Below, in pieces: positions 26,216-37,159 of a stretch of 58,698 nt of DNA; within the stretch, counting starts at the first letter, position 1; every line of letters starts with the position of its first letter. Source of the DNA: a virus; the IMG/VR virus record IMGVR_UViG_3300029827_000002, positions 1 through 58,698 of that record. One strand, 5' to 3'. A program made the translations under genes and the position numbers. Under the pieces are notes generated by a model. That model ran no database searches, had not been told where the DNA came from, and saw nothing but the letters and a program-made list of their open reading frames with translations.

Positions 26216-26482
26216 TTATTTATATAATTTGTCAATATATATCTGTTTATATTGTCTTATTATATTATTATTAGGAGGTAGATAAATAATTAATAAATCT
26301 ATTTGTTTAGAATTTAGATTAAAAAATTCCAAAGGTCTTCCTCCCTTAGTACCTTTGCCATATCTTAATATACAAGAATTCATATTACCAAATTGTGTAA
26401 AATCATTTTTATATTTTTTTAAATATCTTATTATTGCTTTATGAGATATTTTTAATTTCTCTGATAATTCAATACTAGTCAT
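26216..26482 (-). CDS. Rha/antirepressor-like HTH protein
   Basis: 88 residues beginning TSIELSEKLKISHKAIIRYL, the winged-HTH start of Rha-type phage regulators, followed by GRPLEFFNLNSKQIDLLIIY, the usual second strand-helix element. It has an ATG that overlaps the stop of the transferase gene, so it ends the glycan operon. It could control late genes, or it may be a passenger. Confidence 0.72.
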   Translation of the reverse strand: MTSIELSEKLKISHKAIIRYLKKYKNDFTQFGNMNSCILRYGKGTKGGRPLEFFNLNSKQIDLLIIYLPPNNNIIRQYKQIYIDKLYK

Positions 26483-27612
26483 TATATTTTTAACCTGTTA
26501 GCTAATTCTAATATTTGTTTTGCTGCGGTTTTACCTGCTTTACCCCTTAAGTCGGTTGGATAAATTTCTTCTATAAATTCTTTTTCTAAATCTTTCATTC
26601 CATCAGATAAAGCAATATCAAATAATTTAATCATGTTTTTTATATCTTTTGCATGATAACCAATTTTTTTAGAATAAATTTGATATTCAAAATTTGCTGG
26701 ATCAGATTTAAAATGATTCATTGTATCTTTTGCACAAATCCAATCAGGAAAAATTACAGGCTTGCCTAATATCCATGCTTCGTATAAAGTTGATCCTGCA
26801 TCTGCGATAACAATATCGGCTTCTAATAATTCATTTGTTGTCGGTAATTGTTTCTTTTTATTATGCATTTTACTTGTTGGATGTAAGCTTGTTACTAAAT
26901 CATAATCTTTTGGAATTTGATCTAAATATCTTAAAAATGCTGGATAACTTGATCTCCCTTTATTTTTCGAATGATATCCATGAGTAGGAGCCCATAGAAT
27001 TTTAGGTTTTAAATTCTTTTTAATTGAATTCTTATTAATATTAATTAATGGATCTAATTTAGTATATCCACAGATAAATATTTCTCCCTTATATCCAGTA
27101 TTTCTCATTCTATTTTCCCATGCTGGGCCCGAAACAAAAGCATATTTATAATCCTTAATTTTATCTCCTTTCCAATAATTTTTATCACCTATTCCATGTG
27201 AAAAGAAAATATCATTTGGGCCAACTGGAGCTTTACCCTGTTCGTTAATTCTAGCAGAATTAAAAAATCTAATATTCATTCTTGTTAGTGGAATTTTTGA
27301 ATATCCAATATCTTTTTTGGGAAGATGTTTCATTATTGGATTTGATAAAGCCTCTATTGCATGAATGTAGGCTTCGCCTGCATGTTGGCTCATGTTATCG
27401 TAAACAAAATTTATTTTGTTTCCTTTTTTAAGACCATGTCTTTTCATATATGCTTGATTATCGAGCTTTCCTACCCTTAATCCTCTATTACTTCTTATTT
27501 CTCTAAATATCTCGTTTGAATCGACTCTAATCGTAATCTCTTCAAAAGGTTCAAATCTATATTTCCCAATTATTATTGTATAATGAACTCTATTTAAAAT
27601 ATTTACTAACAT
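26482..27612 (-). CDS. TagB/TagF-like polyol-phosphate (CDP-glycerol/ribitol) transferase
   Basis: 376 residues. The segments KILWAPTHGYHSKN and DIVIADAGSTLYEAW with GKPVIF match the GT-B CDP-glycerol glycerophosphotransferase family (TagB/TagF: ILYAPTxR..., DxxixDySSxxfdxxlxxkPxif). It would transfer glycerol- or ribitol-phosphate from its CDP form to an acceptor glycan or teichoic acid. The adjacent CDP-ribitol-type synthesis genes (27612, 28258) strengthen ribitol as the donor. GGAGG ribosome site. Confidence 0.78.
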   Translation of the reverse strand: MLVNILNRVHYTIIIGKYRFEPFEEITIRVDSNEIFREIRSNRGLRVGKLDNQAYMKRHGLKKGNKINFVYDNMSQHAGEAYIHAIEALSNPIMKHLPKKDIGYSKIPLTRMNIRFFNSARINEQGKAPVGPNDIFFSHGIGDKNYWKGDKIKDYKYAFVSGPAWENRMRNTGYKGEIFICGYTKLDPLININKNSIKKNLKPKILWAPTHGYHSKNKGRSSYPAFLRYLDQIPKDYDLVTSLHPTSKMHNKKKQLPTTNELLEADIVIADAGSTLYEAWILGKPVIFPDWICAKDTMNHFKSDPANFEYQIYSKKIGYHAKDIKNMIKLFDIALSDGMKDLEKEFIEEIYPTDLRGKAGKTAAKQILELANRLKI

Positions 27613-28265
27613 TATTTTTTTACCTCCAATATTTGTCCATTAAGCAAATTATCACTTTCTATCAAATTACAAATAAATTTGCCTATTTCATGAGGTTGAA
27701 GCATATTTTTAAAATCATCATCGGGCTCTAATTCATGTCTCATATCTGTATTGACTGCCCCAGGGCAAACAATATATATTTTTATTCCATATGGTTTTAA
27801 TTCTTCTGACATTGATAAACTAAAATTAATTAAAGCTGCTTTTGTTGCTGCATAAATTGACCTACCTGGCCTTGCTCCTAAGCCAGCAGTTGAAGCAATA
27901 TTAATTATTTTACCTTCTATCTTTTTATTAATGCAAAATTTTACATATTGTTTAGTACAATTAAAAACTGCATTAAAATTAACATTAAATTGTTTATTAA
28001 TTGATTTAATACTAGTTTCAAAAATACTTCCTTGTTCTGCAATTCCAGCATTATTAATAAGTGCAATTGGATAATATTTCTTATCTTCTTTATTAAAATC
28101 ATCAAAATTTTTTATAAATTCTTCAAATTTTTTAAAATTTGTTATATCAAAATCGCTCCATCTTGAAATTGGATAATAAAGATTTTCTTTGCTTCTATAA
28201 CACCATTCTTTAGCAATTGCAGCCCCAATTCCTCTACTACTACCAGTTATTATAATATTACTCAA
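27612..28265 (-). CDS. Short-chain dehydrogenase (Bcs1/TarJ-like context)
   Basis: A 217-residue SDR: NAD(P) motif TGSSRGIG at 7-14, NNAG, the catalytic S-Y-K triad in INIASTAGLG..YAATKAAL, and PGAVNTDM. It starts with TTG after GGAGGG and overlaps the cytidylyltransferase. In Haemophilus Bcs1 an IspD-like domain is fused to an SDR reductase that makes ribitol 5-phosphate from ribulose 5-phosphate. The separate gene pair here may do the same. Confidence 0.85.
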   Translation of the reverse strand: MSNIIITGSSRGIGAAIAKEWCYRSKENLYYPISRWSDFDITNFKKFEEFIKNFDDFNKEDKKYYPIALINNAGIAEQGSIFETSIKSINKQFNVNFNAVFNCTKQYVKFCINKKIEGKIINIASTAGLGARPGRSIYAATKAALINFSLSMSEELKPYGIKIYIVCPGAVNTDMRHELEPDDDFKNMLQPHEIGKFICNLIESDNLLNGQILEVKK

Positions 28266-28941
28266 TTTTATTACCCTCCTTATAATTTAAGATTGCCTCG
28301 GCAATTTTAAGATCAATAGGATAAGTAATTTTAATATTTTCTCTTTCACCATGAAAAATTATTTTTCTTTTAAAAGGAATTTCGCCAGATATTTCTTGAA
28401 ACTTATAAATTAAGTCCATATCATCCGTAGAATTTTGAGAAATCATATTTGTATGGACTTTATAAAGCTTTTGATTATCATATTTTTGTGGCATTTGAAC
28501 ACACCCAAAATCATTTCTATCATAAGAATTTCCTAATATATCAATTACACTGGCACTTGATAAGTCTATAGGTACTACACAATCGCCATCAGCTTCTATA
28601 ACTTTTTTTATTAAATTTATCGACATAAAAGGTCTTACAGCTTCACAAATTAGCAAATTTTTTGTCTTGACATGTTCTAAGCCATTATAAACTGATTGCT
28701 GTCTAGTTTCCCCAGCTTCACATATATATCTATTTTCAATATTATATTCATTTAAAAATCTTATTACATTGGAATTATCTAAATCACTTGGAATTATAAT
28801 TGTTCCAATATCTTCAATCTTTCTTAAGGTTTCTAATCCATATATAAAAATAGGTTTTCCTTTTAGTCTAGCAAATTGTTTAGGATATCCTAATTCAGCT
28901 CTTTTTCCCTTTCCTCCTGTAAGATAGATTACATCAATCAT
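28258..28941 (-). CDS. IspD/TarI-family cytidylyltransferase
   Basis: 227 residues with TGGKGKRAELGYPKQFARLK (nucleotide-binding loop), CEAGETRQQSVYNGLEHV, CVQMPQ and ENIKITYPIDLKIAEAIL, all typical of the IspD/TarI family. It would form CDP-ribitol or a similar CDP-polyol from CTP. Neighbours (SDR and TagB/F-like transferase) argue for a polyol-phosphate role rather than isoprenoid synthesis. Confidence 0.85.
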   Translation of the reverse strand: MIDVIYLTGGKGKRAELGYPKQFARLKGKPIFIYGLETLRKIEDIGTIIIPSDLDNSNVIRFLNEYNIENRYICEAGETRQQSVYNGLEHVKTKNLLICEAVRPFMSINLIKKVIEADGDCVVPIDLSSASVIDILGNSYDRNDFGCVQMPQKYDNQKLYKVHTNMISQNSTDDMDLIYKFQEISGEIPFKRKIIFHGERENIKITYPIDLKIAEAILNYKEGNKIE

Positions 28942-28945
28942 ATTT

Positions 28946-29065
28946 TTACTCCTTTTCTTTTTTCCAAAATTTTTCTATTAATTCCTTATTATCAATTAAT
29001 ACTTGATATAAAGATGATTCTAAAATAGATATAATTTTATATTCTATGCCACCAATTTTAATCAT
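28946..29065 (-). CDS. Possible small protein, 39 aa
   Basis: Starts at ATG 29065, overlapping the previous stop (ATGA), and ends before the cytidylyltransferase gene. The product starts MIKIGGIEYKIISI. The AAGGAG for the next gene lies in its last codons. No motif; it could be a coupling peptide. Confidence 0.45.
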   Translation of the reverse strand: MIKIGGIEYKIISILESSLYQVLIDNKELIEKFWKKEKE

Positions 29066-29895
29066 AATTCTTGTAATTTTTCCTTCCATAAATCTATTAT
29101 TTGATTATCAATAATTATTCTTTTATCATTTTCAAAAACATTAAGTAAAAATTTAATTTGTTTTTTATAATCATGTGGAACTTTTGGTGTTTTTCTTTTT
29201 TGTCCGTCTTTTCTTATTAATGTTTTATTAAAATTATCCCATTCTAAATAATCAGGAATAAAATAACTTTTGTGATATTCACCAGAATAAAAATCACAGC
29301 CTAATATTCTTAATGATTTAATATTAAATTCTAATAAATGCATAATCGCAATTGTAGACATATTTGGTTCAGTTCCATCAAGTTTTATCCTTAAGTCATT
29401 TACAAAAAAATCAAAGACAGTATTCAAAGTTATTCCTTTTGTCTTTTCTGCCATAACATATTTTCTATTTAATAAAACAAATCGATTTAATGCTCTTTTT
29501 TCTTTTTCATTGCCATATACAGGGTCACGTTTAGCAACAATCCATTTTATTTTATCTCTATCTAATAGTTTAATCCTACCTGTATTATATCTATTTGCAG
29601 CCCATTTCAAGGATCGCATAATGGCTCCCGTATGATATAATACATCTGTTCTATTTCCGATATCTTCATGTATGAGTGAATAATCTTCATGTAATGGATT
29701 TATTGGAAATGTATTATTAAGTCTTACAACAATATCATAATTATTAATTTCCTCTCCTTGTTTTGATCCTTCTAAAATATTACTAGGCCCAACTATAATA
29801 ATATTTTTTCCTTTTAAATAATTTGAATAAAAGAAAGCATGTTTAAAATAATTAATTGGTCTTACACGTTTTGTTACTATTTTTCTTCTTGCCAT
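29062..29895 (-). CDS. GT29-like sialyltransferase
   Basis: 277 residues. Residues about 30-62 (KNIIIVGPSNILEGSKQGEE, then DIVVRLNN) mimic the L-sialylmotif of GT29 (VVGNSGxLxxSxxGxxIDxxDxViRxN). DIGNRTDVLYH (78-88) follows as in the family. Residues 175-203 (PNMSTIAIMHLLEFN..ILGCDFY) resemble the S-motif. GT29 enzymes move sialic acid from CMP-sialic acid. Together with the neighbouring NeuB- and NeuA-like genes, it is likely to use a CMP-nonulosonic acid. It could act on a phage or host glycan. No transmembrane anchor is visible. Confidence 0.7.
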   Translation of the reverse strand: MARRKIVTKRVRPINYFKHAFFYSNYLKGKNIIIVGPSNILEGSKQGEEINNYDIVVRLNNTFPINPLHEDYSLIHEDIGNRTDVLYHTGAIMRSLKWAANRYNTGRIKLLDRDKIKWIVAKRDPVYGNEKEKRALNRFVLLNRKYVMAEKTKGITLNTVFDFFVNDLRIKLDGTEPNMSTIAIMHLLEFNIKSLRILGCDFYSGEYHKSYFIPDYLEWDNFNKTLIRKDGQKRKTPKVPHDYKKQIKFLLNVFENDKRIIIDNQIIDLWKEKLQEL

Positions 29896-29905
29896 AATAA
29901 TTCTC

Positions 29906-30589
29906 CTAATCTTTTATAATTCTTATAATTTCAAAAACTTCGGCATATTCTTTTAAAATAATACTTCCATTTATACTTGCTTCATTAACAATTTTGTCAA
30001 TACTTCTTGGATGAGGATTTTCTTTAATTTCATCTTTATACATTTTTAAAGCCGCAATTTTTTGATCTAAAATATCCTTAGATATATTATTAATAAAATT
30101 AGGCTTAAATTTTTGTAAGCTCGGAGCTTGCCATTCTGTAGATGATAAAGTTTTAAAAGAATAAATTTCTTTTATTTGATTATTACATGGTCTTGCGGCT
30201 GTTATTGTAGATGTAAAAGTTAGTCTATGATCTATATTTAAATCACTGTAATTATGAGTATAAATAATATTTGGTTTAATAGAAAATAACCATGATTCAA
30301 TGATTTTTATAATTTCTAATATTGAAATTGTATCAAACTTTTGATCTGGAAGATTTGCAAAATAAATGTTATAATTTAAAAATTTTGCGACTTCTTCAGA
30401 TATTTTTCTTAATTGAAGAATTTCTTTATTTATATTTGTATTATCATTTTTATATCTTGAAGTAATACCAGTACTTAAAATTAATACTGAGACTCTATCA
30501 CCATTTTTTATATGTTTTATAAGCGTTCCACCTACACCAATTAATTCATCATCTGGATGCGCCACAATTGCTATTACATTATTTTTCAT
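29906..30589 (-). CDS. PIG-L/LmbE-type deacetylase
   Basis: 227 residues. The Zn motif AHPDDE sits at 10-15 (His11, Asp14), with a THNYSDLNIDHR loop ending at His121, the classic PIG-L fold. It would remove an N-acetyl group from a sugar (nucleotide). Next to an N-formyltransferase, a de-acetylate-then-formylate sequence is plausible. It overlaps the formyltransferase gene by 11 bases, which indicates co-translation. Confidence 0.88.
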   Translation of the reverse strand: MKNNVIAIVAHPDDELIGVGGTLIKHIKNGDRVSVLILSTGITSRYKNDNTNINKEILQLRKISEEVAKFLNYNIYFANLPDQKFDTISILEIIKIIESWLFSIKPNIIYTHNYSDLNIDHRLTFTSTITAARPCNNQIKEIYSFKTLSSTEWQAPSLQKFKPNFINNISKDILDQKIAALKMYKDEIKENPHPRSIDKIVNEASINGSIILKEYAEVFEIIRIIKD

Positions 30590-31256
30590 TTTTTATCGTC
30601 CTTTCAATTTTTACATCTGCAATTATATGATCATTTTTTAAACTTGCTCTTGAAAATTCAATTTTATATTCACCAAATTCAATATATGCTTTTGGATATC
30701 CTTCACCATCAAGCATTCTAATAAAATCAAATATCTTATTTAAATTAAATTCTTTTTCAATTCTATTATTATAATTTCTTGTATAACTTGTAACTTCTCC
30801 AATTTGATCTATAGGTTTTAATTGTTCATTGATTATTTTAGGAATCATTTTATTAAAAATAATATTTGAAATTCTAATTAATATCTCATCACAAGTTCCA
30901 TTTAAACAAAGATTTTCCTTTAGATAAATAGGTCCAGAATCATAATCTTTAATTATCTTAATTGCAGATATTTTAGTATGACTTATATTATCTAATATTT
31001 GATTTTGAATTGGACTGCCACCTCTGCCATAAGGCAAATCCGTACAATGAAACAATATACAATTAAAATTCTCATAAACTTCTTTTGGAATAAACCATGA
31101 CCAATGAATAAAAAACACATAATCAGGTCTGAAGTTAACTAAAGTTTCTAATAAATAATCTTTTTTTGTAATTATTTGTAATTCTTTGTATGTATAATCT
31201 AAAGATTTAGCTTTTTCTATATGACATTTTTTTATTGTTGCTATTAATATTTTCAT
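30579..31256 (-). CDS. Sugar N-formyltransferase
   Basis: 225 residues with the Fmt-like core: NCILFHCTDLPYGRGGSPIQ (residues about 65-84, catalytic His) and DYDSGPIYL (Asp106). It probably uses N10-formyl-tetrahydrofolate to formylate an amino sugar, as do formyltransferases found in some bacterial nonulosonic-acid clusters. The C-terminus LDGEGYPKAYIEFGEYKIEF is the OB-like extension. Confidence 0.82.
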   Translation of the reverse strand: MKILIATIKKCHIEKAKSLDYTYKELQIITKKDYLLETLVNFRPDYVFFIHWSWFIPKEVYENFNCILFHCTDLPYGRGGSPIQNQILDNISHTKISAIKIIKDYDSGPIYLKENLCLNGTCDEILIRISNIIFNKMIPKIINEQLKPIDQIGEVTSYTRNYNNRIEKEFNLNKIFDFIRMLDGEGYPKAYIEFGEYKIEFSRASLKNDHIIADVKIERTIKNEK

Positions 31257-31259
31257 AAT

Positions 31260-31820
31260 TTATTTATTTCTTTCTTCAAAATAATAATGATTGAAATTAA
31301 AATATAACGAATTAAAAAAAGATCCATTAAAAAACTTTCTACTTGGTAAAATTGTGCTATAGCCGTTATATTTTTTAATCATTTTTTCCCAAAATTCTAT
31401 ATTAGGATTACATTTATAACATTCACCATAAATATTTTGTAATCTCATATTTTTAAAACCTTCTTTTAAAACTAAACTTAATACTTTCGATCCATATCCT
31501 TTGCTAATATATTTGGGGCCAATAGTTAAAGCTATTTCGGAATTTCCATTTTCCCACTGAATTTTATCAAGACCAGTATATCCAATAAAAGTATCTATAT
31601 CTTTGTCTCTTTCTCCTTCAGCCTCTTCTTTAAAAATTCCCCAATATCTGGCATTAATACTTCGATTGTTTATAACATTTTTCAAAAAATCTATCTGCAT
31701 ATCACTTGTAAGTAAATACGGTGTTCTATAAATACCTTTTTTGGTATTTTCATTTCTCCATATTCTTAATTTTTCTAAATTTTCAAAATTTAAAACATCT
31801 AAATAAATATTATCTTTCAT
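31260..31820 (-). CDS. GNAT acetyltransferase (PseH/RimL-like)
   Basis: 186 residues; GNAT signature with AcCoA loop ISKGYGSKVLSLVLK and a NIYGECYKCNPNIEFWEKMI end (RimL style). In pseudaminic-type pathways PseH acetylates the 4-amino group of the UDP-sugar made by PseB and PseC. The operon position supports the same step here. It overlaps the CMP-sugar synthetase-like gene. Confidence 0.8.
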   Translation of the reverse strand: MKDNIYLDVLNFENLEKLRIWRNENTKKGIYRTPYLLTSDMQIDFLKNVINNRSINARYWGIFKEEAEGERDKDIDTFIGYTGLDKIQWENGNSEIALTIGPKYISKGYGSKVLSLVLKEGFKNMRLQNIYGECYKCNPNIEFWEKMIKKYNGYSTILPSRKFFNGSFFNSLYFNFNHYYFEERNK

Positions 31821-32475
31821 ATGTTCTCCTTATTTTTAATATTTTTATGATATCTTCTACTCTTTTAAAGTCTTCTATTGTATCAACACTCCATTTATAA
31901 TCAAATTTAAAAACAGAGTTAACCTCATAAATTTTAAATTTCTTAGGATTATTTTTTATAAATCTTGTTACATGTTCCCTATCTTCTTTATCTTCAGCAA
32001 CATTGTTAATATATGCTAAAACGGATGACTTCATGATTTCTACATCAAGTCCGCTAGGTAATCCATTTTTACCTCTATTATGTGTAAAATCAGCATTATT
32101 TAATAAATGTTTCTGTATAACTTCATCAATAACTTTAGGATAAAACCCTAACATTGGACAATCACTTGTTATTCTTACAACATTTGTTATATTTTCTTGT
32201 GTAATATTTTGTATATAATTTAATGCTGCATAATACCTATTTAATACATCTTCTTCATTTCCTTCATGAGAATAACAGAAACATTTATCTGAATATAATT
32301 TTGAAAAAACACTATTATCTGAAAATGGATAAATTATTCCTGTAAAATGACTTAATTTACTTTGTTTTGCCCCTTCAATTGTATAACTGGTCATTGGATG
32401 ACCAGCCATACTTTTTATACATTTTCTTTGAAGTCTATTTGATTTTAATCTGGCTTGAATTAAAGTTATTATCAA
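31810..32475 (-). CDS. CMP-sugar synthetase-like (NeuA/SpsF family)
   Basis: 221 residues: IQARLKSNRLQRKCIKSMAG (CTP-binding loop), EDVLNRYYAA, VRITSDCPM, DREHVT and YKWSVDT, which match the SpsF/PseF/NeuA group of the CTP_transf_3 family. It would activate a nonulosonic acid as its CMP form for the GT29-like enzyme. It ends one base before the synthase-like gene's stop codon, so they are one transcript. Confidence 0.82.
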   Translation of the reverse strand: MIITLIQARLKSNRLQRKCIKSMAGHPMTSYTIEGAKQSKLSHFTGIIYPFSDNSVFSKLYSDKCFCYSHEGNEEDVLNRYYAALNYIQNITQENITNVVRITSDCPMLGFYPKVIDEVIQKHLLNNADFTHNRGKNGLPSGLDVEIMKSSVLAYINNVAEDKEDREHVTRFIKNNPKKFKIYEVNSVFKFDYKWSVDTIEDFKRVEDIIKILKIRRTYER

Positions 32476-33135
32476 CTACAACACTTCCTTTAATATATCT
32501 GGTGTTCTTGCAAATTCCCCAGCATCTAAACCTGTCGAAGTTTTTAACTTGTAATGCCATTCGATTATTTTAGGTTTAAATCTATTAAACAGTGCAAAAT
32601 TATTTGTATGATCTGAAATATTATTCCCAATTTTAATATCTAATTTTAAATATTCTTGAACACTAGCAGGATATTGACTTATACACCAAAATTCTTCAAG
32701 TTCTTTTGGAACTTTTACGCAGCCTAACCCAGATATATTTTTATTTCCGAATTTAATTGTTAAATCATTTGTTTTTGAAATATATACTGGAATTTCTTCA
32801 GGTATAAAATCTATTAAATAATCTAATTCTCTTCTATTTGCTATTTTCACGAATGGAATATCATAACCAAGTAAAAATTCTAATGATGGTCTATCAAAAA
32901 TAGAAGCGGTTACTTTATATCCTAATTGATTTCCATATTCATAAGCATAATTAAATGATTCTTCAGTTAAAGGAATATTCGCTCCACAAGCTTTGAATAA
33001 TTGCCATTTTATAATTATTTCATACTTGCCGCTGTCAATAGCCTTCAATTCATCATACATTCTTTTTATTATTCTTTCGTCGTTTCTACATGTATTTCCA
33101 GACCCAAAATCCAATATTATTGTTTTATTTTTCAT
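32476..33135 (-). CDS. Short NeuB/PseI-like nonulosonic acid synthase
   Basis: 219 residues from ATG 33135 (GAGGTG upstream; the frame starts at 33150). Features: SIFDRPSLEFLLG and VKIANRRELDYL (NeuB TPFDxxSvdfL and KIASxEltn), CISQYPASVQEYL, NISDHT and GLDAGEFARTPD. Usual NeuB proteins are about 340 residues and have a C-terminal SAF domain; that domain is absent here. It may be a minimal enzyme or depend on a partner. It lies between the CMP-sugar synthetase and the Acb2/Tad1-like gene. Confidence 0.82.
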   Translation of the reverse strand: MKNKTIILDFGSGNTCRNDERIIKRMYDELKAIDSGKYEIIIKWQLFKACGANIPLTEESFNYAYEYGNQLGYKVTASIFDRPSLEFLLGYDIPFVKIANRRELDYLIDFIPEEIPVYISKTNDLTIKFGNKNISGLGCVKVPKELEEFWCISQYPASVQEYLKLDIKIGNNISDHTNNFALFNRFKPKIIEWHYKLKTSTGLDAGEFARTPDILKEVL

Positions 33136-33685
33136 AAGTGCCAAGAACACCTCTTTCTTTTCTTTTATTTGTTCTCGATCTTAAAGCTACAATAGCAGCT
33201 TTTAATCCATCTAAAGCAATATTATTTTCATTACACTTAAGTTCTGAGTTTTGAAAAGTTTCTAAAACATCAATACAAATTCCGATAATATCAGGAAGGA
33301 AAACACCATTTAAATTAGTTTTATTTATAGGTCCATTTTGAAAATGTATTCCACATAAAAGATTATTATTTTCAACACTTTTAATTAAATAATTTTTCGA
33401 AGAATTATTCTCATTTTCATCTTTTTCAATATATGTATGTTCTTCAGTCAATAATTCATTCCTTAATCTTGTTAAGTTCCCATTGATCTTTTTATAAGCT
33501 TTAAATGGCTCTTCTGGACTCCATGATAAGTAATCATCTGAATATCTAACAGAATATCCTTTTTTATTATCTGGAAGACCAGTATTGATTTTTTTATCTC
33601 CATATTTAAAATCGGCATATTCTCCATAATTCATTTCACAAGCTTCAATTTCTTTTGTTCCAAAATATTTTTCAAATTTTTTCAT
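33125..33685 (-). CDS. Acb2/Tad1-like hairpin domain protein (candidate anti-defence)
   Basis: 186 residues in two parts. N-terminus FEKYFGTKEIEACEMNYGEY and VRYSDDYLSWSPEEPFKAY resemble the KYIGTKxixAxPMtrgeYn...GYlVxYxDGyxSWsP cap found on phage proteins, often before Tad2-like domains. C-terminus HFQNGPINKTNLNGVFLPD, ALDGLKAAIVALRSRT and KERGVLGTY resembles a helical-hairpin family I associate with Acb2/Tad1 sponges (recall, unverified). Such proteins bind signal nucleotides of CBASS or Thoeris. It sits inside the glycan operon. Confidence 0.62.
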   Translation of the reverse strand: MKKFEKYFGTKEIEACEMNYGEYADFKYGDKKINTGLPDNKKGYSVRYSDDYLSWSPEEPFKAYKKINGNLTRLRNELLTEEHTYIEKDENENNSSKNYLIKSVENNNLLCGIHFQNGPINKTNLNGVFLPDIIGICIDVLETFQNSELKCNENNIALDGLKAAIVALRSRTNKRKERGVLGTYEK

Positions 33686-34244: not shown

Positions 34245-34632
34245 TATTTTTGCCTCTATAGACTAAAGATTTCCAATCATATTCTAAATCAAAGAATCTA
34301 TTTAAAAATTCTCTAGCTAATTCATTTGATTTTTCATGATCAATATTACAATTATCCATAAAAAAACATGAAATATTTGAATGCCACCCCAAAAGTAAAT
34401 CGTCATCTTCGGATTCAAGCCAATATTTCATTTGTGATAATGTGAATTTAAATTCACAATTTCTAAATTCTGGTTTATCCCTATTTTCAATTGTTGATAA
34501 ACACAATTCAATTCCATTATACATACCAATCATATAATCGCTTTTTAAACTTTCAGCCTGGTTTTTCTTTGTTTCTTTTAATTTTCTTAAATTTTCCTTG
34601 AAATTTATTATTTCAAATTTTTCATTATTCAT
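34237..34632 (-). CDS. Hypothetical protein, 131 aa
   Basis: Soluble protein with a KENLRKLKETKKNQAESLKS helix, GIELCLSTIENRD and DDLLLGWHSNISC. It overlaps the aminotransferase by four bases (ATGA), so it is coupled. No sugar-enzyme motif; it may be accessory. Confidence 0.65.
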   Translation of the reverse strand: MNNEKFEIINFKENLRKLKETKKNQAESLKSDYMIGMYNGIELCLSTIENRDKPEFRNCEFKFTLSQMKYWLESEDDDLLLGWHSNISCFFMDNCNIDHEKSNELAREFLNRFFDLEYDWKSLVYRGKNND

Positions 34633-35732
34633 TTTAAATTTAAACCTTCTTTCATAAATTCATTAATACAATTAATGATATATTCTTGTTGTTCAAATAA
34701 TAAGTTATAATACAATGGAATACTTATTATTTGATCGGCTACTTTTTCAGTATTAGGACATTGTTTTGAATAATCAATTTTGTCCAATGGATCATAATAA
34801 AATGAATTTTTATATATTGGAGGGAAATGTATAACACATTGAATTTCCCTTTTTTTCATGTAATTAATAAATTTATTTCTATTTTTTCTATTCTTAACTT
34901 TAATTACAAACAAATGATAAACATGAATTCTTCCCTTTAATTGCTTTAATTTTTCACATTTTAACTTATCAATATATTTATCAGCCAACATATATCTAAA
35001 TGTTTGAAATTGACAATGCTTTGTTTTAAATTGACTTAATACAAGTGCTGCATTTATTTCAGACATTCGATAATTATAGCCTAAAAGCTCCATCATACCT
35101 TCTTCATTTCTTCCATGATTTCTAAATAATTTAACTCTATAATCTAATATATAATCATTTGTTAATAAAGCTCCACCTTCACCAGATGTTATATGTTTTG
35201 CTGGATGAAACGAATAACAAACAATATCAGGAATTGTATTATCAGCGATTCTATTAATTCCGCCAAAAGAATGACACGAATCACTAATAAAATATAATTG
35301 GTTATTATCGCAAATTTCTTTTATTGCTTTATAATCAGCTAATTGACCTGCATAGTCCATGGAAATTATTGCTTTGGTTTTATTTGTGATTAATTTTTTT
35401 ATACTTTCAGGATCAATTAAAATAGTATCTGGATCGATATCCGCAAAAACAGGTGTTCCTCCACAATAACTTACACAATTTGCAGTTGCTACAAAAGAAA
35501 TTGAAGGAATAATTACTTCATCCCCAGGTTTAATTTTTATTGCCATACAAGCAGCATGTAAGGCAGATGTACCACTATTAAGAGTTTTACAAAATTTATA
35601 ACCTGTATAGTTACTCAATTCATTCTCAAATTCTTTTGTAATTTCTCCTTGTGTTATATTATCGCTTGTTAATACTTTATTTACCGCTTTTATATCATGC
35701 ATATCAATAAAATGCTTTGCATAATTAATCAT
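34629..35732 (-). CDS. DegT/DnrJ/EryC1 aminotransferase (PseC-like)
   Basis: 367 residues. LNSGTSALHAACMAIKIKPG, GDEVIIPSISFVATAN, the SDSCHSFGG region and SFHPAKHITSGEGGAL with PLP lysine K179 match the PseC group. It would transaminate the 4-keto-6-deoxy-UDP-sugar made by the dehydratase at 36209 (4-amino product). HFPPIYKNSFY near the C-terminus fits the family. It is directly after the coiled-coil pair. Confidence 0.9.
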   Translation of the reverse strand: MINYAKHFIDMHDIKAVNKVLTSDNITQGEITKEFENELSNYTGYKFCKTLNSGTSALHAACMAIKIKPGDEVIIPSISFVATANCVSYCGGTPVFADIDPDTILIDPESIKKLITNKTKAIISMDYAGQLADYKAIKEICDNNQLYFISDSCHSFGGINRIADNTIPDIVCYSFHPAKHITSGEGGALLTNDYILDYRVKLFRNHGRNEEGMMELLGYNYRMSEINAALVLSQFKTKHCQFQTFRYMLADKYIDKLKCEKLKQLKGRIHVYHLFVIKVKNRKNRNKFINYMKKREIQCVIHFPPIYKNSFYYDPLDKIDYSKQCPNTEKVADQIISIPLYYNLLFEQQEYIINCINEFMKEGLNLK

Positions 35733-35964: not shown

Positions 35965-36236
35965 AATAATTTCCTCATTTCTTCAATAGATAAGTTCTCC
36001 TTTTTTCTTTCTACTTGTGCTTCTTTTGCTTTGCTAAATTGTTCTTTTAATTGATTTAATTCTTCTTGCAAATAACTTTTTTCAAGTTTTAATTGTTTAA
36101 TATTCTCAATCAATAATTCATTAGTAATTTTTAAATTTTCATTTTCTTTTGACATTGCAATATGATCAATTTGTAATTCTTCATATGTCATTTTTCTATA
36201 ATTTTCATTCATAATAATTTCCTCATTTCTTCAATA
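35741..36236. repeat. Tandem direct duplication of about 248 bp
   Basis: The segment 35741-35988 is repeated with about 90% identity at 35992-36236. The repeat includes the last ~9 codons of the upstream gene (IEEMRKLL), a ribosome site and the coiled-coil gene. The upper copy therefore ends like the 4,6-dehydratase gene does. Confidence 0.85.
35961..36212 (-). CDS. Coiled-coil protein, first copy of a tandem duplication
   Basis: 83 residues, coiled coil as in the gene at 35725. Its C-terminus (LSIEEMRKLL) equals that of the 4,6-dehydratase just upstream. The duplication therefore fused the end of the dehydratase gene to this gene's tail. ATG overlaps the dehydratase stop. Confidence 0.75.
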   Translation of the reverse strand: MNENYRKMTYEELQIDHIAMSKENENLKITNELLIENIKQLKLEKSYLQEELNQLKEQFSKAKEAQVERKKENLSIEEMRKLL

Positions 36237-37159
36237 CTCAAAATATTATTCTCATTATTACTTGCATATGTAAATTGATTATGATTTATCCATAATTCTG
36301 GTAGTTTTCCATAATAAAGCTTGTAAAATGTATCGTAAATCACAATATTTCTTGATTCTTCATGACTAACTAATGTTTCATTGATTTTTTCGCCTTTTCT
36401 TAATCCTACAATTTTTATTTCAGCATCTTCCTTTATGGCTTTTATTAAATCAACTATCTTTAAAGTAGGTAATTTAGGAATAAATATTTCTTGACCTTCC
36501 ATAATTTCTAAAGAAGATAAAACAAATTTTGCGGCATTATCTATAGTTGTCCAAAACCTAGTCATTTCATTATCAGTTAAAGGAAATTTGCCACCTTCTT
36601 TGGCTATCTTCTTGAAAAAAGGAATAACTGATCCTCTAGAGCCAATAACATTTCCATATCTTACAATCGAAAATATAGTTTCATTATCGCCAGAATAATT
36701 ATTTCCATCAATAAACATTTTCTCCATACATGCTTTTGTACAACCATATAAATTTATAGGATTTACGGCTTTATCTGTAGAAATTGCCAATACTTTTTTA
36801 ACTTTTCTATCAATAGCAGCATCAATTATATTCGCTGATCCTATAACATTCGTTTTGACAGCTTCAAAAGGGTTATATTCGCATGAAGGAACATGCTTTT
36901 GAGCGGCTGTATGTATAACATAATCAATTTCATTAAATGCTCTATACAATCGATCTTTATCTCTTATATCACCAATAAAAAAAGATAATTTTGGATTATT
37001 TTTAAATTCTTTTTTCATTTCTGATTGTTTATATTCATCCCTAGAATAAATATAAATTTTTTTGATATGTTTATCACTATTTAATAATTGTTTTGTAAGT
37101 TCTTTTCCAAGAGTTCCTGTTCCACCTGTTATTAGAATTTTTTTATAAAACTTATTCAT
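36209..37159 (-). CDS. UDP-GlcNAc 4,6-dehydratase (PseB/FlaA1-like SDR)
   Basis: 316 residues. NAD motif GGTGTLG at 12-18, AAQKHVPSCEYNPFEAVKTN, ISTDKAVNPINLYGCTK (catalytic Asp, Tyr and Lys), RYGNVIGSRGSVIPFF and TDNEMTRFW. These match PseB-type inverting dehydratases that begin pseudaminic acid synthesis; the CapD/FlaA1 family is the alternative. It is the first of the sugar genes in the operon and has an AAAGGAG site. The C-terminal SIEEMRKLL is duplicated in the next gene. Confidence 0.88.
   Translation of the reverse strand: MNKFYKKILITGGTGTLGKELTKQLLNSDKHIKKIYIYSRDEYKQSEMKKEFKNNPKLSFFIGDIRDKDRLYRAFNEIDYVIHTAAQKHVPSCEYNPFEAVKTNVIGSANIIDAAIDRKVKKVLAISTDKAVNPINLYGCTKACMEKMFIDGNNYSGDNETIFSIVRYGNVIGSRGSVIPFFKKIAKEGGKFPLTDNEMTRFWTTIDNAAKFVLSSLEIMEGQEIFIPKLPTLKIVDLIKAIKEDAEIKIVGLRKGEKINETLVSHEESRNIVIYDTFYKLYYGKLPELWINHNQFTYASNNENNILSIEEMRKLL

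Follow-up and report, generated by a model that had tools for sequence, protein, structure and literature searches.

A putative GT29-like nonulosonic acid transferase in a phage sugar gene cluster, with relatives in or near bacterial pseudaminic acid operons

Results

A phage cluster of nonulosonic acid synthesis genes

The window, the whole stretch of 58,698 nucleotides analysed here, is an IMG/VR phage record carrying tape measure, portal, minor head, scaffold and capsid genes. The placing of the glycosyltransferase (GT) in a phage by the first-pass annotation is thus sound, as is its report of adjacent nonulosonic acid (NulO) synthesis genes, which Pfam and NCBIfam identified as PseB-like, PseC-like, NeuB/PseI-like, CMP-sugar synthetase and others. 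With the minor head gene (37991) to one side and those for scaffold (22607) and capsid (21575) to the other, the cluster has all its genes on one strand, in the order PseB-like, PseC-like, unknown phage protein, NeuB/PseI-like, CMP-sugar synthetase, GNAT, formyltransferase, PIG-L, GT, TarI/IspD-like, SDR and TarB-like.

The PseB-like UDP-GlcNAc 4,6-dehydratase (inverting; 36209-37159, minus strand, as for every enzyme gene below) scored 406.2 bits with TIGR03589, whose cut-off is 407.75. For the PseC-like aminotransferase (34629-35732) the best NCBIfam model was TIGR03588 (320.6 bits; cut-off 423.5). A phage protein of unassigned function (phrog_2428; 33125-33685) sits inside the cluster just before the gene of a short NeuB/PseI-like synthase (32476-33150; 224 aa), which is without a SAF domain. 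PF03102 matched this synthase under its cut-off, and the copy in the sister phage L003 above it (35.4 bits). In alignment the synthase appears minimal, with the N-terminal barrel half shortened and the C-terminal motifs SDH and EWH retained. There follow a CMP-NulO synthetase (31810-32475; CTP_transf_3, weak PseF/KdsB), a GNAT acetyltransferase, weakly PseH-like by Pfam and NCBIfam (31260-31820), a formyltransferase (30579-31256) and a PIG-L deacetylase (29906-30589; Pfam). Homologues of the formyltransferase occur in bacterial Pse operons together with relatives of the GT that we call GP-type, having GPS or GPA in place of GNS. Beyond the GT, Pfam and NCBIfam identified an IspD/TarI-like cytidylyltransferase (28258-28941) and an SDR oxidoreductase (27612-28265). 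A TarB-like polyol-phosphate transferase (26482-27612) was matched weakly (NF041711, E 7e-7, far below cut-off). These last three genes (26482-28941) may form a cassette for polyol-phosphate transfer, linked to the NulO genes.

A search of the window found no PseG, and by curated cut-offs the six-enzyme Pse pathway (PseB-C-H-G-I-F) is not complete there. The cluster nevertheless resembles a pathway to pseudaminic acid with formylation. Very few sequenced phages have a NulO synthase gene: a PseI relative was present in 3 of 50,697 records.

GT29-like motifs in the putative transferase gene

The putative GT29-like (GP-type) NulO transferase is encoded at 29062-29895 (minus strand) by an ORF of 277 codons with an ATG start and AGGAGAA just 5' of it; its 277 aa product was characterised by Pfam, profile searches, an AlphaFold model and Foldseek/VIA-align 2. 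PHROGs gave no match to the ORF, and a single-sequence phmmer search of the PDB returned nothing useful. The first-pass annotation had proposed a GT29 profile search, and this was positive: PF00777 (Glyco_transf_29) matched residues 33-120 at 37.7 bits (E 2e-9; Pfam cut-off 23 bits) and was the sole Pfam family at E <= 1. The match takes in the L motif together with DIGNRTD, and its score over the cut-off places the L motif and DIGNRTDVLYH well above chance; the remainder of the protein has diverged too far to be matched by the Pfam model.

The L-motif-like segment KNIIIVGPSNILEGSKQGEEINNYDIVVRLNNTFPIN (29698-29808, minus strand; aa 30-66) was located by the Pfam stretch and by alignments. It reads GPS where GT29 enzymes have GNS, so that Asn is replaced by Pro. 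Because this Pro recurs in several bacterial lineages, it is a trait of the subfamily and not a lesion. DIGNRTDVLYH (29632-29664, minus strand; aa 78-88), in the Pfam stretch and the ST3Gal1 alignment, is the counterpart of GT29 DVGSKTT. The S-like and VS-like segments fall outside the Pfam stretch and emerge from a subfamily-only profile aligned with porcine ST3Gal1 (chain residues 93-280). The S-motif-like segment EPNMSTIAIMHLLEFNIKSLRILGCDFYSG (29281-29370, minus strand; aa 176-205, of which EPNMSTIAIMHLLEFNIKSLRILGCDFY is aa 176-203) aligns as NMSTI...LGCDFY, with PSTG changed to MSTI and the S-motif Gly to Ile. Of the L-like and S-like segments with DIGNRTDVLYH between them, as first read, Pfam supports the L motif and DIGNRTD, and the subfamily profile aligns the S-like segment, in which the Gly of the motif is absent. 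A degenerate motif III-like segment, EYHKSYFIPDY (29248-29280, minus strand; aa 206-216), was assigned from alignments and by inference, just EYHKSY standing at the motif III position (H/Y-Y-Y/W-E). The VS-motif-like segment, PHDYKKQ (29158-29178, minus strand; aa 240-246), was placed by alignments and contains H241, the proposed catalytic base; in GT29 enzymes this role has been reported for the VS His (PMC10225777). The VS pattern HxxxxE has become HxxxxQ in the phage proteins, and the Glu is kept in the bacterial relative L012. Across the GP-type alignment H241, N60, R58, D54, G80 and Y211 are invariant.

Fold and family placement

The AlphaFold model of the GT is of modest confidence (pLDDT 60, pTM 0.64), with aa 90-158 poorly modelled; that of the L012 protein has a pLDDT of 54. 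Foldseek with the phage model returned GT29 for all of the top 30 chains. A structure comparison with GT29, GT42, GT52 and GT80 had also been proposed at first pass, and GT29 was best in it. VIA-align 2 aligned the predicted model (pLDDT 60) with ST3Gal1 over 171 residues at Z 11.2 and an rmsd of 3.9 A, and the listed GT29 chains gave Z 9.5-11.2. GT42 chains formed the second-best fold group (Z 7.4-8.8). The best bacterial sialyltransferase match was 9c08 (Z 8.8), with CstII at about 8.7-8.8, and MptE-like HPPK reached Z 8.5. GT-B sialyltransferases (the GT52/GT80 fold) are absent from the fold list, an absence that does not amount to exclusion.

A profile built from GP-type sequences alone, without any canonical GT29 sequence, found the solved GT29 enzymes first among PDB sequences (E 1e-5 to 1e-3), and its best match covers the L motif through the VS His. 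PF00777, the GP-type profile and the fold thus agree with the original description of the protein as GT29-like. GT42 gave no family at E <= 1 in Pfam and no chain in any profile search of PDB sequences. GT42, GT52 and GT80 were each rejected as the family of the phage GT, with no sequence match and PF00777 alone at E <= 1.

Conservation and selection

The GT gene occurs in three further IMG/VR phage contigs, at 99, 96 and 87% identity and in the same neighbourhood. Between the window and L003 its dN/dS is 0.19 and the protein is 88% identical, whilst the neighbours in the cluster are less conserved (60-73%). The further carriers and the low dN/dS indicate that the gene is real and under selection. 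In the sister phages L003 and L004 a gene for a 198-aa methyltransferase separates the GT and IspD-like genes; the window is without it (28942-29061).

Bacterial relatives of the putative phage transferase

Bacterial GT29 sequences, 23 of them, were reported in 2018 (PMC5811610). GT29 is therefore not confined to eukaryotes, and the first-pass description of it as mainly eukaryotic went too far. Six bacterial relatives of the phage GT came from one genome scan. The best, a Puniceicoccaceae protein (L012), has the GPS motif too and is 31% identical, and samples of two phyla yielded more GP-type sequences. In the tree the phage proteins join the bacterial GP-type with support of 83/90, not a strong branch, and both stand apart from canonical bacterial GT29, huge-phage GT29 and ST3Gal1.

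Transfer from a eukaryote to the phage was rejected: a clade with ST3Gal1 gave an AU p of 0.0056, and the best tree places the phage GT with the bacterial GP-type. A single origin of all phage GT29 was also rejected (AU p 0.011), with long branches present. These AU tests used one animal sequence, a fragment, with long branches and with groups named after the tree was seen. The transfer of a eukaryote-type fold suggested at first pass is thus not borne out, the nearest relatives found being bacterial GP-type proteins. Judged from sequence, the phage GT is a divergent branch of bacterial GT29, apparently inherited from bacteria and only distantly akin to animal sialyltransferases.

Two fusions were seen among the bacterial proteins. 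Helicobacter mesocricetorum encodes a GT2-GT29 fusion protein (L015:303-2306). In a genome of the phylum of L012, a region that by eye is FkbM-like methyltransferase is fused to a GP-type GT29-like domain (L054:40-1971).

Linkage of GP-type genes to pseudaminic acid operons

Relatives of the phage GT lie in, beside or near sets of pseudaminic acid genes in three bacterial genomes. In L056 the GP-type gene lies directly upstream of PseB, PseC, a PseF-like reading frame, PseG, formyltransferase and PseI; PseB, PseC, PseG and PseI all score over the equivalog cut-offs of their families. A relative in L079, with GSA for GPA, adjoins a complete Pse operon whose formyltransferase is similar to that of the phage (2e-12). 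In L057 PseF and PseI, both above cut-off, are about 4 kb from the GP-type gene. The gene next to that of L012 encodes a CMP-NulO synthetase (PseF 81.8 bits, under cut-off), and the closer GP-type members L054 and L055 have no Pse-type neighbour genes. The link is thus strongest in a longer sub-branch (L056, L057 and L079), whilst L012, L054 and L055 are not beside complete Pse operons. It is seen at individual loci, and Pse genes are a very small part of these genomes. This link between GP-type relatives and pseudaminic acid operons is the new element of our analysis; a search of the open-access literature found no paper tying GT29 to phage NulO genes or to pseudaminic acid transfer.

A 44-kb contig classed as viral (L173) encodes PseC, PseF, PseG and a PseI 70% identical to that of L056. 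The GP-type gene is absent from this stretch, which may be host DNA.

GT29-like genes in other phages

The first-pass annotation regarded a phage GT29-like enzyme beside NulO synthesis genes as a notable transfer of the fold. GT29-like genes are not rare among phages. BFVD already has an entry under the name 'Glycosyl transferase family 29 [uncultured Caudovirales phage]', and in a scan with the L011/DLP_6 type, confirmed GT29-like relatives of another phage lineage turned up in at least 222 IMG/VR contigs. Ten sampled among these all matched PF00777, seven of them over the cut-off. The IMG/VR family L093-L172 shows the pattern ILVGNSVEILQ...RFGxGxP...SWHxP...NPHxxxE, with an NPHxxxE-like VS motif in most members. 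In contrast to the window phage, none of 80 L011/DLP_6-type IMG/VR loci had detectable NulO synthesis genes within the flanks examined.

In INPHARED, tblastn with canonical or L011-type queries found clear GT29-like genes in 2 of 50,697 records, LR756508 and Stenotrophomonas phage DLP_6. Matches in PP596840 and a Mycobacterium phage were judged to be chance. The 484-kb uncultured phage LR756508.1 carries at least five GT29 paralogues at about 309-327 kb (L005, L021-L028), with a NeuB gene among them; several have an HYWEE-like motif III, and they lie near ST3Gal1 in the tree (87/96).

Discussion

Given the observed homology, fold, gene neighbourhood and purifying selection, we infer that the phage GT is probably an inverting, metal-independent NulO transferase of the GT29 clan and GP type, with a CMP-pseudaminate-type donor and H241 as its base. 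With PseG not found, a short and divergent NeuB, and weak PseF and PseH matches, the sugar could be another NulO, and an enzyme of the same fold and CMP-sugar chemistry might use a legionaminic-, sialic- or Kdo-type donor or another CMP-linked compound. The PseF-like enzyme of the window scores equally with Kdo cytidylyltransferase and PseF, and a canonical bacterial GT29 gene adjoins NeuB in L016, as another does a CMP synthetase in L017. However, PseB lies at the equivalog cut-off and no aminotransferase model does better than PseC, both belonging to the Pse branch, and the GP-type relatives in L056, L057 and L079 accompany Pse genes. We consider a donor outside the pseudaminic type unlikely, if well worth bearing in mind.

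The fold and the activity could also be read differently. The protein would be GT42-like or MptE/Maf-like if its GT29 likeness were confined to the donor-binding half; the Pfam match is indeed limited to the N-terminal half, CstII and MptE-like HPPK come next in fold, and the LGCDFY segment presumably resembles one of GT42. We think this improbable, as GT29 leads by 2 Z units and also in sequence, whilst GT42 appeared in neither the Pfam nor the PDB-sequence profile searches. The changes GNS to GPS, PSTG to MSTI and VS Glu to Gln would suit a catalytically degenerate homologue that binds CMP-sugars or has a regulatory role without transfer. Yet the GP form is found in diverse bacteria with H241, N60, D54 and R58 invariant, and the phage gene is under purifying selection and more conserved than its neighbours, which makes loss of catalysis the most far-fetched of these accounts.

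If the phage GT is a NulO transferase, its donor would be a CMP-activated nonulosonic acid, most likely of pseudaminic acid type with N-acetyl and/or N-formyl groups. It would be made by the phage PseB, PseC, GNAT/formyltransferase, NeuB and CMP-synthetase genes with help from the host. The Rossmann-like L-motif half of the GT would bind this donor, and H241 of the VS-like motif would take a proton from the acceptor hydroxyl, allowing in-line attack with inversion and no metal. As the gene lies among head genes and is probably expressed late, the most likely acceptor is a virion or host-surface glycan.

To our knowledge, nearly all that is known of GT29 concerns sialic acid. It is close to an even call, tending to the negative, whether the GP-type as a whole is a GT29 branch with pseudaminic acid, probably N-formylated, as its donor sugar in place of sialic acid, serving bacteria in their Pse operons and acquired by a phage that produces a Pse-type sugar of its own and attaches it. 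If true, such a branch would widen the donor range of the family and offer, for a bacterial sugar, a candidate transferase that is soluble. A phage with both synthesis and transfer of the sugar points to the modification of phages themselves, or of their hosts, with acidic nine-carbon sugars.

Comparison with known systems

The GT29 enzymes of PF00777 (ST3Gal1, ST6Gal1, ST6GalNAc2 and ST8Sia3) have in common with the phage GT the L motif, a VGSKTT-like segment, an S-like segment, the VS His and the fold. Unlike them, the phage GT is without a Golgi anchor, has GPS for GNS, degenerate S and III motifs and Gln for the VS Glu, and its neighbours probably make a Pse-type sugar. The published bacterial GT29-like proteins (PMC5811610; L013-L017) are, like the phage GT, prokaryotic and anchorless with an L motif and VS His, but they keep GN or GS, mostly carry an additional region at the N terminus and lie outside the GP-type group (83/90). 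The bacterial GP-type proteins (L012, L051/L054, L046/L055, L047/L056 and L041/L057) share with it the GPS/GPA L motif, a similar S region and the invariant His and Tyr; they differ in residing in cellular genomes, in an identity of 21-29% over the alignment and, for several, in extra N-terminal domains. GT42 enzymes (CstI and CstII) use CMP-sialic acid and have a related fold (Z 7.4-8.8), but a sequence-profile match is absent. The pseudaminyltransferase KpsS1 (GT118) uses CMP-Pse, the type of donor proposed for the phage GT; as cited in PMC12887879, it is a retaining KpsC homologue of an unrelated family.
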